Assembly: GCF_030408815.1 (NCBI RefSeq)
Contig: NZ_CP047355.1
Location: 1,364,001-1,428,000 of the forward strand
Length of the DNA stretch: 64,000 nucleotides
Direction: 5' to 3'
From: Corynebacterium freiburgense
GTDB taxonomy: Bacteria; Actinomycetota; Actinomycetes; Mycobacteriales; Mycobacteriaceae
The translations under genes were made by a program, and so were the position numbers. The notes under the pieces were generated by a model. The model had not been told where the DNA came from, did not search any database, and was given only the letters and a program-made list of their open reading frames with translations. This document shows positions 34,681-40,497 of this stretch, one piece after another; position 1 is the first letter of the stretch, and every line of letters begins with the position of its first letter.

Positions 34681-35478
34681 TCACCCCCCGTTACCCCCGA
34701 TGCTGCCAATCAGCACGAAACGAACGCACACGATTGGAGTGGAATCCGTGATACGGAACTCTGGGTCTCCAAAATACTCCAAAAACTCTTGAGTCTCCCA
34801 ATACGCTCGGTGAGCCTCGGCCCATTCCTCAACACTGCTAAAGCCTTCGCCTTCATTTTGAGCATGCTGGACTGAAACAGATGAAAAGGGAACAACTTGG
34901 GCCTCAACGATTTCCACAGCGCATACCGGCATGTTTGTGGAGTCAACGACGACCTCGATATCACCAGGCTGCGGTAGTTCGGTATTGGCGTTGTTGAATT
35001 CGTCTTCCAAAGAAGCTGTCGCGGTTTTCTCGCCGGAAACAATTGCTGAAATCAGGCGTTCGCGTAATTCTCCCGGAAAACCGAAATACCCTATGTTTGC
35101 GTGAGTTTCGATACCGTTAATTGTGAGCAGGGCAGTGTCATTTTCGATTTTCAGTACTTGGATATCAGCATCGGGAGGTGTACGAGATTCAACTATCCTG
35201 CAGTTACCGATTACATTCCCGCCATCATAAAACGGAAATTCAAAACCAGGGGTGAGGAGTTCGTTAGGTGCCTCGTCCACTAAAAAACGGACCTCGTCGG
35301 CGATGGTGATAATGCCTTGGTCCACCGGTGGAGCTTTAAACGAAAATACGACACTCCATGCTGAATCTTGGCAATATAGTTGTGTATGTAGTGTTAATGC
35401 TGCAGACAGGGAACGATTGCCAGCAGTAAATATCTGCGGGTCCCAGTAAATAACACAAGGTAACGCTTGAGGAGGCAT
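34681..35478 (-). CDS. ASCH-domain protein with an extra N-terminal domain
   Basis: A 265-residue protein. The C-terminal ~140 residues form an ASCH domain: LRERLISAIVSGEKTATASL, then LPQPGDIEVVVDSTNMPVCAVEIVEAQVVPF, and the W-A-E-A-H-x3-W signature near residues 220-228. ASCH domains have an RNA-binding PUA-like fold and some hydrolyse modified nucleosides. The N-terminal ~120 residues are beta-rich and faintly resemble an EF-Tu-like barrel (inference). It sits downstream of the pfl genes on the same strand, ~80 nt after pflA. Role unknown. Confidence 0.7.
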   Translation of the reverse strand: MPPQALPCVIYWDPQIFTAGNRSLSAALTLHTQLYCQDSAWSVVFSFKAPPVDQGIITIADEVRFLVDEAPNELLTPGFEFPFYDGGNVIGNCRIVESRTPPDADIQVLKIENDTALLTINGIETHANIGYFGFPGELRERLISAIVSGEKTATASLEDEFNNANTELPQPGDIEVVVDSTNMPVCAVEIVEAQVVPFSSVSVQHAQNEGEGFSSVEEWAEAHRAYWETQEFLEYFGDPEFRITDSTPIVCVRFVLIGSIGGNGG

Positions 35479-35557: not shown

Positions 35558-36424
35558 CTAGCATACAAAAAGCCCCTCGGCTCGAAAAACGGATCGAGCA
35601 AATTCTAGGCTCTCCGCAGTTGGAGGCCGCACCCCGGAAAGGGAATAGCTCATACCGAGATGATGCCATTTATCTTCGCCCATATTGTGGAATGGAAGCA
35701 CCTCTACACGTTCAATAGCAGTCTTCCACTCAGCTGCGATTCGGGCTGCTGCGGCAATATTGTCGGGGGAATCTGTTAATCCAGGCACTAATACAAACCG
35801 CAGCCAAATCTTTTTCCCCAAAGTTGCTAGACGATTGCCGAAGTCAATGGTTGGCTGCAAGTCACGCCCAGTGACTGTTTTGTAGGTTTCTGGAATACCT
35901 GATTTAAGATCCAGCAATACTAAATCAATATTGTTGAGATCCTCATCGCTTAAAAGCCCACCGAGGAATCCGGAGGTGTCAATGGCGGTATGAACGCCAG
36001 CCTGATGTGCGAACTCCAAAATGCGGCGAGTAAAAGCAATTTGAAATAACGGCTCCCCACCTGAAATTGTGAGTCCACCACCAGAGGCTCGAAAGATTCG
36101 CCGGTACCGTAAAATCTTTGTGTGAATGTCTTCGATTCGTTCGAGGGTCCCTTCACGCATTTCCATGGTGTCAGGATTGTGGCAGTACTGGCATCGAAGC
36201 GGGCAGCCAGACATAAATAGAGTGAGTCGGGTGCCGGGGCCATCGACGGCCGTAACCAGCTCCCAAGAGTGAACGAGCCCAATATCGCCGGTGCGCCGGG
36301 CGTCGAAAAGCTCACTGCGACCTAGTTCGATGCTGTCGGTGGATCCGAGACCGGCGGCGGCCCCACGGACACGTGGACCAGATTCAGGTGCAAGAGTGAC
36401 GTGGGTATTAATGCCGTCGCCCAT
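35558..36424 (-). CDS. pflA: Pyruvate formate-lyase activating enzyme
   Basis: A 288-residue radical-SAM enzyme starting at ATG 36424, 7 nt after the glycyl-radical gene. The [4Fe-4S] motif C74-x3-C78-x2-C81 is within MSGCPLRCQYCHNPD. The GGGLTISGGEPLFQ and VLLDLKSGIPETY segments are typical. It abstracts a hydrogen from the glycine of the lyase using SAM, generating the glycyl radical; here its target glycine must be in the separate 83-residue protein. The N-terminal ~45-residue extension is longer than in E. coli PflA. Confidence 0.92.
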   Translation of the reverse strand: MGDGINTHVTLAPESGPRVRGAAAGLGSTDSIELGRSELFDARRTGDIGLVHSWELVTAVDGPGTRLTLFMSGCPLRCQYCHNPDTMEMREGTLERIEDIHTKILRYRRIFRASGGGLTISGGEPLFQIAFTRRILEFAHQAGVHTAIDTSGFLGGLLSDEDLNNIDLVLLDLKSGIPETYKTVTGRDLQPTIDFGNRLATLGKKIWLRFVLVPGLTDSPDNIAAAARIAAEWKTAIERVEVLPFHNMGEDKWHHLGMSYSLSGVRPPTAESLEFARSVFRAEGLFVC

Positions 36425-36431
36425 AATCTTG

Positions 36432-36683
36432 TTACGCTCCGTGGTGGAAGGTGCGGGAGAGTACGTCTTTTTGCTGCTCTTTTGTGAGCTTGACAAAGTT
36501 CACCGCATAGCCAGAAACTCGAACGGTTAGATTCGGATAATTTTCTGGATGTTCCATGGCATCCTCGAGAGTGCTGCGATCAAGCACATTAATATTCGCG
36601 TGGTACAAACCGGATTCGGCATTGTGCTGTGCTCGGGCTGCTTTCATATCAGCCATACGCTCATCGAAGGTTTTGCTTGACAT
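36432..36683 (-). CDS. Separate glycyl-radical domain subunit (GrcA/YfiD-like)
   Basis: An 83-residue protein with TAGGAGACC before ATG 36683. Its C-terminal half is exactly the glycyl-radical domain of pyruvate formate-lyase: [23 protein letters not shown], then R55-V-S-G58-Y-A, and a C-terminal [11 protein letters not shown]58 is the expected radical glycine. The N-terminal ~25 residues are helical and charged. The neighbouring lyase lacks this region, so this is a dedicated subunit completing it, unlike E. coli YfiD, which only rescues a full-length lyase. Located 38 nt after pflB and 7 nt before pflA. Confidence 0.85.
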
Positions 36684-36721
36684 GTAGGGGTCTCCTAGAA
36701 ATGGGTTGAAATAATGAAAAC

Positions 36722-38806
36722 TTAGTTTTGAACTGGGACTTCATCCATGATAAAGCCAGCGTCTAGAATGCCGACAAGATTGCCAATCTGCTCATCCTTG
36801 GTTCGCCCCAGTGCGGAGGGCGTAATGGTATTGGTAAGTGAAATCCCATCGAGGGCATCTTCGTAGTCCAATTTGCCTACCGAGAGCATTGAGGCCAGCA
36901 TGCCGTGAGAATCGATTCCGTTTTCGGGATTGGCGCCTGGTGCGAAAGGAGTTCCGGCCTTATGCCCCGAGGGAAATGAGCCAGTTGCTTTGCCGTACAC
37001 AACATTTGATGTGATCGTTAGTACCGATTGTGTAGGGATGGCATCGCGATACATTGGAATTTCTTTAATCTTGCTCATGACCGTGTGTACAACCGTGGCG
37101 GCGATATCGTCCGCGCGGTCATCGTCGTTGCCATAAACCGGGAAATCTCCCTCAGTAATGTAATCAACAACCAAGCCGGTCTCATCGCGTACCGGCGTTA
37201 CCTTTGCGTACTTAATAGCAGCTAGCGAGTCTGCAACAATGGAAAGACCTGCAATACCGCAGCCCATAGTGCGCACAATATCCGAATCATGCAGAGCCAT
37301 TTCAATGGATTCATAGGCGTAGCGGTCGTGGCAATAGTGGATAATATTGAGCGCCTCAACATAGGTGCCAATTACCCAGTCAAGCATGCCCTCATATTTT
37401 GCCCAAACTTCATCAAAATCCAGGGGGCCATCACCTTGGATCGGTTCGAAACCTGACACAATTTGTTTTCCGCTTACTTCATCGCGGCCACCATTAATGG
37501 CGTAGAGCAATGATTTCGCAGCATTTACGCGTGCGCCAAAAAATTGCATTTGCTTACCCACGGCCATAGGAGAGACGCAACAAGCAATTGCTGCATCATC
37601 ACCCCAACGGCAGCGGATTTGCTCATCCGATTCGTATTGGATAGAGGATGTTTCAATAGAAATAGCCGCACAGAAATCTTTATAGCCCTGGGGTAGTTGA
37701 GGGTCCCAGAACACAGTAATATTCGGCTCCGGTGCGGGGCCGAGGTTGCGTAATGTCTGCAGCAAACGGAATGATGTTTTGGTGACCTGTGGGCGTCCAT
37801 CTGATGAAAAACCGGCATCGGACCAGGTTGCCCAATATGGGTCACCAGAGAAAATCTGATCGTAATCAATCGTGCGAAGGAACCGAACGATACGCAGTTT
37901 AATTACCAGAGCATCGATGAGTTCTTGGATTTCTTCTTCTGTAATGGTGCCCTGGGCGAGGTCACGCTCAAAATAGACATCCAGGAAGGCAGATAGCCGC
38001 CCTATGGACATAGCTGCACCGTCTTGGCTTTTCACCGACGCCAAATAGGCGAAATACGTCCACTGGACTGCTTCTTTGGAATTTGTTGCCGGTCCGGAAA
38101 TATCAAAACCGTAGCTTTCCGCCATTGCTTTGAGCTTTTTCAACGCCTTGATTTGTTCGGCGTGCTCTTCGCGGTACCGTGCCCAGTGCTCGTTAAACGG
38201 TTCAGATTGGACTCGATCTTTAGCGGCGAGCTTCTCTTCAATTAGGAAATCAACACCATATAGGGCCACGCGGCGATAATCGCCAATAATGCGACCACGG
38301 CCATATGCGTCTGGCAGACCGGTAATAATATGAGACGAACGTGCGGCGCGGATACGCGGCGTGTAAATATCAAATACGGCTTCATTGTGTGTTTTCCGGT
38401 ATTTGGTAAAGATTTCTTTAATACGTTCATTTGGTTCTTTACCAGCTTCCCGGATTGCGGTTTCTACCATACGCCAACCACCATTAGGCATCATTGCCCG
38501 TTTTAGAGGCGTATCTGTCTGGAGACCAACAATCACATTATCGTCTTCGCTGATATATCCAGCGGGAAATGCATCAATATCTGCGGGGGTTTCCGTGTCC
38601 ACATCATAAACACGGCGTTGCCGCTCAACTGAAAGGAAATTGCGTTCCAAATGGTCCCACACGCGGAGAGTCTTTTCCGTTGGGCCGGCAAGGAATGATG
38701 CATCGCCTTCATATGGGGTGTAATTCTGCTGGATAAAGTCACGAACATCAATAGAGTCTTGCCAGGAGCCAGGCGCAAAGCCCTCCCAAGCCGTTGTTAG
38801 AGGCAT
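36722..38806 (-). CDS. pflB: Pyruvate formate-lyase core lacking the glycyl-radical domain
   Basis: A 694-residue formate acetyltransferase converting pyruvate and CoA to acetyl-CoA and formate anaerobically. The catalytic Cys pair C409-C410 lies in [12 protein letters not shown]. The N-terminus ([29 protein letters not shown]) and [16 protein letters not shown] are canonical. The protein stops after [18 protein letters not shown], about 60 residues short of the usual end, exactly before the glycyl-radical domain, which is encoded by the next gene with its own ribosome site. Catalysis therefore needs assembly of the two chains. Its ribosome site (GGAAAGG) is rather distant. Confidence 0.93.
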
Positions 38807-39099: not shown

Positions 39100-40497
39100 T
39101 TATTTTCCTTGAAATTGCCTAGTTTCATCGACTTCGATTACGGATTGGGAATCACCAAGAGCTGCATCAAGTTTTTTCAGCGCATTTCGTGAATGCAGTT
39201 GGTGGCGTGTTGTAGTAAGTTGCCAGCGATTCCGCGACAATACATTTAATCCCCATGAAACAGCCGAGACTAGGCGGTTGCGGAAACCAACAAGGAACAT
39301 AAGGTGCACGGCCAGCCACAGGACCCAACCGATAAAGCCGGTAACCTCGACTTTTCCAAGTTTTACTACCGCGGAGAAACGGGAGACAGTGGCCATAGAA
39401 CCTTTATCAAAGTATTCGAATGGCTCTCGAACAGTACTAGGGTTTTCGACCTCTTTTTGGATCTGATCAGCTACGAACTCACCAGCCTGGATAGCCACTT
39501 GGGCTACGCCGGGGAGGTTGTTGTAATTCATCATGTCGCCAATAACGAATACATTATTGTACGTGCCAATAGTGAGGTCATTATTCACCATTACACGACC
39601 GGCACGGTCGAGTTCCGCACCAGCTTGGTCTGCAAGGAGTTTGCCAAGGGGAGATGCCGCTACGCCCGCCGACCAGATTTTGCAATAGGAAGGGATAGTC
39701 TCGGTGGAATCGTCCTGTGTTGATTTGTATGTAACGGAATCTTCGGTGATATCGGTGACAATAGAATTGAGTTTCACCGTTACACCAAGTTTTTCAAGCT
39801 GCCGTTGTGCATTGCGCCCAAGGCGCTTTCCAAAAGGAGGAAGCACTTGGGGTGCGCCGTCCAAAAGCACGATTTTTGCTTGCGATGGATCAATATTGGA
39901 ATAATGACCACGAAGTGTGCGGTGGGACATTTCAGCGAGTTGACCAGCAAGTTCTACGCCGGTAGGCCCAGCGCCAACTACCACGAATGTAAGTAGACGT
40001 TCGCGTTCCTTTGGATCATTGGTGAGTTCGGCACGTTCAAATGCGCCCACAATGCGTGCGCGGATTTCGTGGGCGTCGTCAATGGTTTTCATGCCGGGGG
40101 CGTATTGCGCGAAGTGATCATTGCCAAAGTAGGATTGGCCCGCGCCTGCCGCCACAATAAGGTAGTCGTACTCGTATTCACGTTCGAAATTGCCTAAGCG
40201 AGTAATCACTACTTGACGCTCTGCGTCAATATCCATAACCTCGCCTTTTACCACATGCGCGTTATCCTGGTCTTTTAGGATTTGGCGTGTGGAGGGTGCA
40301 ATTTCTCCTGATGAAAGAATTCCGGTGGCCACTTGATAGAGCAGAGGTTGGAAAAGGTGATGGTTGGTGCGGTCGATTACGGTCACATCAACATCGGCGT
40401 TCTTTAAGAACTTGGTGGCAAAAAGGCCGCCGAAGCCAGACCCGATTACGACGACATGCTGGCGACCGCCTTCGGGGCGGAACGGCTTCTCGGTCAT
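39100..40497 (-). CDS. ndh: Type II NADH dehydrogenase
   Basis: A 465-residue non-proton-pumping NADH:menaquinone oxidoreductase. The FAD-binding GxGxxG is in VVVIGSGFGGLFATKFL near 16-32; the FQPLLYQVATGILSSGEIA segment is a family hallmark; the second Rossmann motif is VVVGAGPTGVELAGQL near 170; and the C-terminal hydrophobic stretch (GWVLWLAVHLMFLVGFRNRL) anchors it to the membrane. Matches the position of ndh in C. glutamicum. Confidence 0.93.
   Translation of the reverse strand: MTEKPFRPEGGRQHVVVIGSGFGGLFATKFLKNADVDVTVIDRTNHHLFQPLLYQVATGILSSGEIAPSTRQILKDQDNAHVVKGEVMDIDAERQVVITRLGNFEREYEYDYLIVAAGAGQSYFGNDHFAQYAPGMKTIDDAHEIRARIVGAFERAELTNDPKERERLLTFVVVGAGPTGVELAGQLAEMSHRTLRGHYSNIDPSQAKIVLLDGAPQVLPPFGKRLGRNAQRQLEKLGVTVKLNSIVTDITEDSVTYKSTQDDSTETIPSYCKIWSAGVAASPLGKLLADQAGAELDRAGRVMVNNDLTIGTYNNVFVIGDMMNYNNLPGVAQVAIQAGEFVADQIQKEVENPSTVREPFEYFDKGSMATVSRFSAVVKLGKVEVTGFIGWVLWLAVHLMFLVGFRNRLVSAVSWGLNVLSRNRWQLTTTRHQLHSRNALKKLDAALGDSQSVIEVDETRQFQGK

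Follow-up and report, generated by a model that had tools for sequence, protein, structure and literature searches.

In textbooks, pyruvate formate-lyase (PFL) is a glycyl radical enzyme made as a single chain, which raises the question of what is encoded by a locus of Corynebacterium freiburgense in which the chain is divided between two genes. The locus lies in a window of 64,000 nucleotides (RefSeq assembly GCF_030408815.1, contig NZ_CP047355.1, positions 1,364,001 to 1,428,000). A preliminary description of its open reading frames (ORFs) had claimed that the pflB frame ends early, just before the glycyl-radical domain, and that the next gene encodes this domain, with the radical glycine Gly58, its own AGGAG site and a gap of 38 nt. 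Both ORFs and the site (as AGGAGA) were confirmed, and the core was found to stop before strand 10 of the PFL barrel and the radical loop. As argued below from sequence comparisons, this locus very probably encodes an obligate two-subunit PFL, a fixed two-part enzyme.

Domain assignments divide one enzyme between the two genes. The Pfam model Gly_radical (PF01228) is split, with model positions 1-65 in the core and 64-106 in the small protein. NCBIfam identifies the core as a formate C-acetyltransferase (TIGR01255: 1001.4 bits, cut-off 994.2, model positions 1-679 of 744) and the small protein as GrcA2 (NF008341: 167.5 bits, cut-off 145), a cut-off also passed by seven of seven small proteins from loci L034, L049, L024, L022, L043, L028 and L242 (148.5-165.2). 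The core is 57.8% identical to Escherichia coli PflB over 683 aligned residues, and in the alignment its missing stretch corresponds to approximately residues 695-759 of the E. coli enzyme. Fold, cysteine pair, RVSGYA motif and adjoining activase are all as in E. coli PflB (PDB 2pfl, 1h16), which, unlike this locus, holds the radical domain in the same chain. The adjacent active-site cysteines are present (Cys409-Cys410 match the E. coli pair) and a radical S-adenosylmethionine (SAM) activase, PflA, is encoded nearby, but the radical glycine motif lies in the separate small protein and not in the core chain, so this is a two-subunit variant and not a canonical one-chain PFL.

The name GrcA2 implies something different, namely a spare part that, like E. 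coli YfiD/GrcA, serves a PFL cut by oxygen. The two proteins do resemble each other: both are separate proteins with strand 10, the radical loop and the C-terminal helix, the domain of the small protein is homologous to YfiD (6owr, E 2.8e-20), and its best match, like its NCBIfam name, is 'autonomous glycyl radical cofactor GrcA2'. However, YfiD/GrcA and phage T4 Y06I mend a full-length lyase after oxygen damage, whereas the lyase here never has the domain, a distinction from YfiD that had been drawn at the outset and that holds. In the C. freiburgense genome (2.96 Mb, two contigs, completeness given as 100), the single PFL-like match is the core itself, so the full-length PFL that accompanies a spare part is absent, and no PF01228 match was found beyond the two halves. 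A search for a second intact pflB had been proposed as a check and yielded none. The earlier claim that the separate piece is required thus gains weight: with no domain in the core to replace and no other PFL in the genome, the small protein has to serve as an obligate subunit. The small gene also sits between pflB and pflA, unlike spare-part genes; its product scores 87 with the spare-part model TIGR04365, whose cut-off is 170, and its tail is 24 residues long with a predicted conserved helix, where that of YfiD has 60 residues and is disordered. We therefore consider a spare-part role improbable.

Comparison with the pfl loci of relatives, another check that had been suggested, shows that the split is the rule in sampled Corynebacterium and common in several other families, and is not peculiar to this genome. 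PF01228 matched in 102 of 201 Corynebacterium genomes, C. freiburgense included; the two-half pattern was seen in 97 of these and a single match of another kind in five. The other 96 loci were fetched and their stops read in the sequence (L159 was entered by hand among the split ones); 94 are cut alike, one is re-fused and one has a truncated core (L152), so a sequencing error does not account for the cut. About 40 Corynebacterium genes with listed frames of ~780-890 aa were candidates for re-fusion, but reading showed them to be in-frame splits listed across the stop. By the count of radical domains (the PFL-like family was searched in the C. freiburgense genome only), 87 of the 97 two-half genomes show nothing for PF01228 beyond the two halves, leaving nothing full-length for a spare part to mend there either. 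The other ten have extra PF01228 matches, and the three that were read are all the anaerobic ribonucleotide reductase NrdD. Corynebacterium genomes with this class III enzyme are L004, L006 and L007.

Named near relatives were taken as the best 80 matches of the core, a non-random set that overlaps with the 96 (L029 and L060 were entered by hand). Seventy-six are split, one is re-fused and three are one-chain (Cellulomonas sp. 73-92, Sanguibacter inulinus and Miniimonas arenae). By record title, the split loci belong to Actinomycetaceae (35), Corynebacteriaceae (22), Micrococcaceae (7), Propionibacteriaceae (6), Dermabacteraceae (4) and Sanguibacteraceae (1), with one unplaced. The record titled Sanguibacter keddieii 250_SKED (2.4 Mb genome) has a split pfl locus whose core end and small protein are the same as those of Schaalia sp. 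ORNL0103 (L077, L084), and it may be mislabelled. Across a class sample of 394 genomes, PF01228 matched in 45: three contain the halves (G000, G121 and G281), one match is cut by a contig end (G208), and the remaining 41 hold the domain complete or almost complete in a single frame. Fifty-eight loci from this and another search were picked by best whole-domain score and are hence biased to one-chain forms; 49 were scored as one-chain by script and six more by eye, while L118 is another enzyme (L132 and L137 were left out).

The small gene has the features of a gene in its own right. The 169 split loci, in which some genomes occur twice, gave 124 different small proteins, whose starts were chosen by a script for a length of 74-95 residues, an ATG and a Shine-Dalgarno match, a choice that favours such values; 100 are 83 aa long, ATG is the start codon of 123, and in 115 at least 5 of the 6 Shine-Dalgarno positions match. 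The gaps between core and small gene range from 3 to 378 nt (quartiles 35, 50 and 88), with lengths modulo 3 of 53/38/33 over 124 loci. Since all three frames are in use, frameshifting and read-through both fail as an explanation of the split, in agreement with the preliminary description, which had argued against a frameshift. It is extremely improbable that a full-length chain is still made by either route with the separate start as a secondary feature: the genes do share a frame in 53 of the 124 loci, somewhat over a third, but the other 71 are spread over both remaining frames, with gaps as variable as those above and starts of their own almost throughout, and in this window the two frames differ.

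The small protein is under purifying selection, with a pooled ratio of non-synonymous to synonymous substitution rates (dN/dS) over 1096 non-independent pairs of 0.074 for residues 25-83 and 0.281 for residues 2-24. This low dN/dS bears on the idea that pflB has decayed, the core having lost its end and the pair being inactive. The core alone does lack the essential glycine, and changes at this locus do occur, as seen in one re-fusion and one truncation. Against this, the same cut is kept in nearly all of the other Corynebacterium loci and of the named relatives counted above, the split has two independent origins, and formate is released by a species with the split form only (both described below). 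We regard decay as very unlikely.

The N-terminus of the small protein had been described as helical, and a helix is indeed predicted for residues 6-19. Within it, Met13 is present in 124 of 124 proteins and Arg9 and Arg17 in 122 each, a spacing of four that would suit a single helix face. Split cores are set apart from one-chain cores by eleven positions; four of these, 570, 571, 574 and 583, lie close together and might be where the new helix docks. An N-terminal extension of PflA was considered as a hallmark of the split but is not special to split loci. It is unlikely that the fission began with duplication of the pflB 3' end in tandem, which would make the new helix a diverged copy of the last helix of the core. 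An ungapped profile comparison matched residues 7-13 (one-chain set) or 4-13 (split cores) of the small protein to that helix, with near-collinear spacing and column-permutation p values of 0.004 and 0.012, but hhalign returned nothing and two unrelated stretches of the core give higher scores (16.1 and 16.0 versus 14.3), so helix duplication is not supported.

For the origin of the split, one-chain relatives with sequence unbroken through the cut region (Bifidobacterium, Cellulomonas, Sanguibacter, Nesterenkonia, Propionicimonas and others) were added to the core alignment. In the resulting 70-core tree, 39 split rows and the re-fused L017 form one group (Shimodaira-Hasegawa-like approximate likelihood ratio test 94), and two changes suffice, one fission and the re-fusion of L017. 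This points, with moderate support, to a single fission of a one-chain PFL in Actinomycetes as the source of the form seen here, which we call type A. Sanguibacter inulinus and Miniimonas were considered as further re-fusions, but with more one-chain relatives both fall outside the split group, so the best reading is that they were never split. The Corynebacterium rows are not all together, which makes some transfer between lineages likely. The sole real re-fusion, in Corynebacterium sp. Marseille-P4321 (L017:1690-4092, 801 aa; the same locus as L153), still holds AAAGGAA and an ATG in its linker where relatives begin the small gene, which fits the loss of a stop codon, and a free small subunit might still be produced from inside the fused gene. 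No similar linker was found among 120 listed of 7980 proteins matching the helix-plus-domain region of L017. A structure model of a natural re-fusion predicts an assembly of the parts like that in E. coli PFL.

A second split, type B, was found when the GrcA2 model was searched over 396 genomes of the phylum. In 21 genomes a separate small frame (≤147 aa, >92 bits) matched only from model position 17 onward; 19 of these loci were fetched (L246-L264), and in all 19 a gene for a PFL core (683-728 aa) precedes one for a separate protein of 83 aa, with an activase motif within the fetched stretch in 15. The small proteins tested (10 of the 19) pass the cut-off of GrcA3 (NF038360), and named database proteins close to that of L250 come from Collinsella and Enorma. 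These Collinsella-type genomes thus have a core and a separate 83-aa radical subunit as here, but the cut is earlier: it falls directly after PxALGK (E. coli residue 677, counting Met), about 15 residues before the type A cut, so that the NLVSMIDAY helix is on the small protein in type B and on the core in type A. The type B cores end in 16-52 other residues, which are acidic and include two or more cysteines in 17 of 19. A 57-core tree places 20 type A rows in one group (96) and 11 type B rows in another (100), and a single common group was rejected by the approximately unbiased (AU) test (p 3.3e-79), which makes the type B fission independent of type A. Further PF01228 matches occur in all 19 type B genomes, so the argument from an only copy is not made for this type.

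Domain-less cores are also represented among solved structures. Two chains titled 'Formate acetyltransferase', 38lb (739 residues) and 38la (687 residues), are among the best PDB sequence matches of the core. Chain 38lb continues past ALGK into a type-B-like tail, and a 162-residue part of it is 82% identical to the type B core of L263 and 73.5% to E. coli; it is very likely a type B core. Chain 38la ends at ALGKED and is about equally near to E. coli (75%) and type B (77% at best), and it may be a shortened construct. Both chains are nearer to type B and E. coli than to the core of this window, with which they share 62-63% and 61% identity in the parts compared. As these entries show, such cores have already been worked on by someone.

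If the two-subunit reading is correct, the core would bring the cysteine site and a substrate barrel with nine of its ten strands, and the missing strand 10 would come in trans from the 83-aa protein, together with the glycine loop and the C-terminal helix. Gly58 would receive its radical from PflA while the small subunit is bound or has briefly swung out; from there the radical would move to the cysteine pair of the core and pyruvate would be split to formate and acetyl-CoA. The new N-terminal helix would act as a non-covalent tether, and after an oxygen cut at Gly58 just the 83-aa subunit would have to be replaced. Complex formation, activation, activity and the exchange of damaged subunits are all steps that we infer.

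An engineered counterpart exists in E. coli. Andorfer et al. (2021) cut the E. coli enzyme at residue 695 as a model of damage (PMC8683613), and in the alignment the natural type A cut lies within ~5 residues of that position. In passages of their paper, the truncated enzyme (tPFL, residues 1-695) with YfiD 61-127 turned over at 204 per s, per the authors equal to the uncut enzyme. The engineered pair is man-made and weakly activated, whereas the two natural proteins have co-evolved and the small one carries an extra N-terminal helix. If a natural pair works, it must have overcome the problems of binding and activation, and we guess that the new helix contributes to this.

The best indirect evidence that a split PFL may be active comes from Actinomyces naeslundii, in which strain NCTC 10301 (L070, genome G950) has a split locus and no other PF01228 match. 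According to Table 1 of PMC6493303, A. naeslundii in culture had released 2.53 ± 1.69 µg formate per 10^6 cells after 20 h with glucose, compared with 0.47 ± 0.06 for Streptococcus sobrinus, and its authors read secreted formate as a sign of PFL use. Among 12 named split genomes that were searched whole, nine have no other PF01228 match. The preliminary description had suggested that a replaceable radical domain would suit an organism often exposed to oxygen; oxygen exposure might be one reason for the split, and exchanging 83 instead of 777 residues after a radical cut is an attractive idea. Collinsella are strict anaerobes, however, and the presence of type B in Collinsella-type genomes means that oxygen exposure is hardly the sole reason. 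Bifidobacterium, which is also anaerobic, kept a one-chain PFL.

Several points weigh against an obligate, working pair and its single origin. The solved chains 38la and 38lb seem to be domain-less: with the type A or type B small protein as query, neither a radical domain nor a chain for a radical subunit was found in either entry; a stable core alone therefore exists. The artificial E. coli pair shows that the activity of a natural pair is not automatic: in the same passages of PMC8683613, tPFL gained 2.7 µM radical with YfiD 61-127 and, with activation almost lost, 0.5 µM with full YfiD, compared with 15.9 µM for a less truncated form with YfiD, and binding between tPFL and YfiD was not measurable. 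Formate levels were called low for all strains by the authors of PMC6493303, the formate may have other sources, and the cultured strain is not necessarily the sequenced one. One of the 97 Corynebacterium loci, L152 (genome G171), keeps the small gene, with pflA, beside a truncated core of which just residues 590-689 are detectable upstream; decay, rearrangement and misassembly are candidate causes. In the structure model, a fused protein of another species represents the pair, and the prediction method had PFL structures in its training data. The trees are quick searches without bootstrap, and poorer one-chain sampling put two one-chain genera (Sanguibacter and Miniimonas) inside the split group or left their placement open, with the alternative placement not rejected by an AU test on 38 rows (p 0.53).

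A broader proposal, which we advance tentatively and as a whole slightly doubt, is that Actinomycetota have twice and independently evolved glycyl radical enzymes of two obligate subunits, whose radical domain would be a dissociable, exchangeable protein cofactor; activation, damage and replacement would then concern the small subunit alone. For the lost covalent tether, type A would have found a substitute in a new helix, and type B in a native helix moved to the small subunit, together with an acidic, often cysteine-containing tail on the core.

The features of the C. freiburgense locus are collected in Table 1. The genes are ordered pflB core, small gene and pflA on the minus strand; the likely start of pflA is the ATG at 36424, 7 nt past the stop of the small gene, while the mechanical ORF begins with a TTG at 36496. 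No terminator-like site is listed on either strand of the gap between core and small gene. Directly downstream of pflA on the same strand is a gene for an ASCH-domain protein (34681-35478), which is not known to be linked to PFL, and upstream of the pfl genes, also on the minus strand, is a gene for a pyridine nucleotide-disulphide oxidoreductase (39100-40497), which we take to resemble type II NADH dehydrogenase. Searches with regulator-binding patterns gave three FNR-like sites (TTGA-N6-TCAA) in the window, with 1.67 expected and the nearest one within the pflB gene, and no GlxR-like site (TGTGA-N2-TA-N2-TCACA) in the window at up to two mismatches. Promoter-like sites numbered 4 versus 5.6 in shuffles, and terminator-like sites 8 versus 5.0.

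Table 1. Features of the split pfl locus (window coordinates).
Feature	Position	Strand	Description
pflB core	36722..38806	-	ORF, 694 aa, ATG start; PFL barrel lacking strand 10, the radical loop and the C-terminal helix
Cys409-Cys410 codons of core	37577..37582	-	Alignment to E. coli PflB, mature Cys418/419
Core/small gene gap, 38 nt	36684..36721	-	Between the two ORFs
Shine-Dalgarno AGGAGA of small gene	36691..36696	-	Also kept in relatives
Small subunit gene (NCBI family GrcA2)	36432..36683	-	83 aa, ATG; strand 10, glycyl-radical loop, C-terminal helix
New N-terminal segment of small protein, residues 2-24	36612..36680	-	Predicted helix 6-19
Radical Gly58 codon (GGC, RVSGYA)	36510..36512	-	In small gene
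pflA, radical-SAM activase	35558..36424	-	TIGR02493 286.1 bits, cut-off 231.75

Among the matches listed in open-access PMC, judged by title and the start of the abstract, no paper on a natural split PFL was found; the terms 'GrcA2' and 'GrcA3' returned 0 papers there, and the passages seen of PMC11528403 and PMC4390871 contain nothing on such a split. The small families have nevertheless already been named by NCBI, though under a spare-part name, and domain-less cores are already in the PDB. A natural split close to the cut chosen by biochemists offers a ready system for studying how the activase gains access to the glycine, whether the radical domain is exchangeable after oxygen damage and how it is held in the barrel. 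Binding and activation were the main weak points of the artificial E. coli split, and natural pairs can be expected to reveal the remedy. The names GrcA2 and GrcA3 probably denote enzyme subunits and not spare parts, and annotation would change in many genomes, including those of Corynebacterium, Actinomyces, Rothia and Collinsella.
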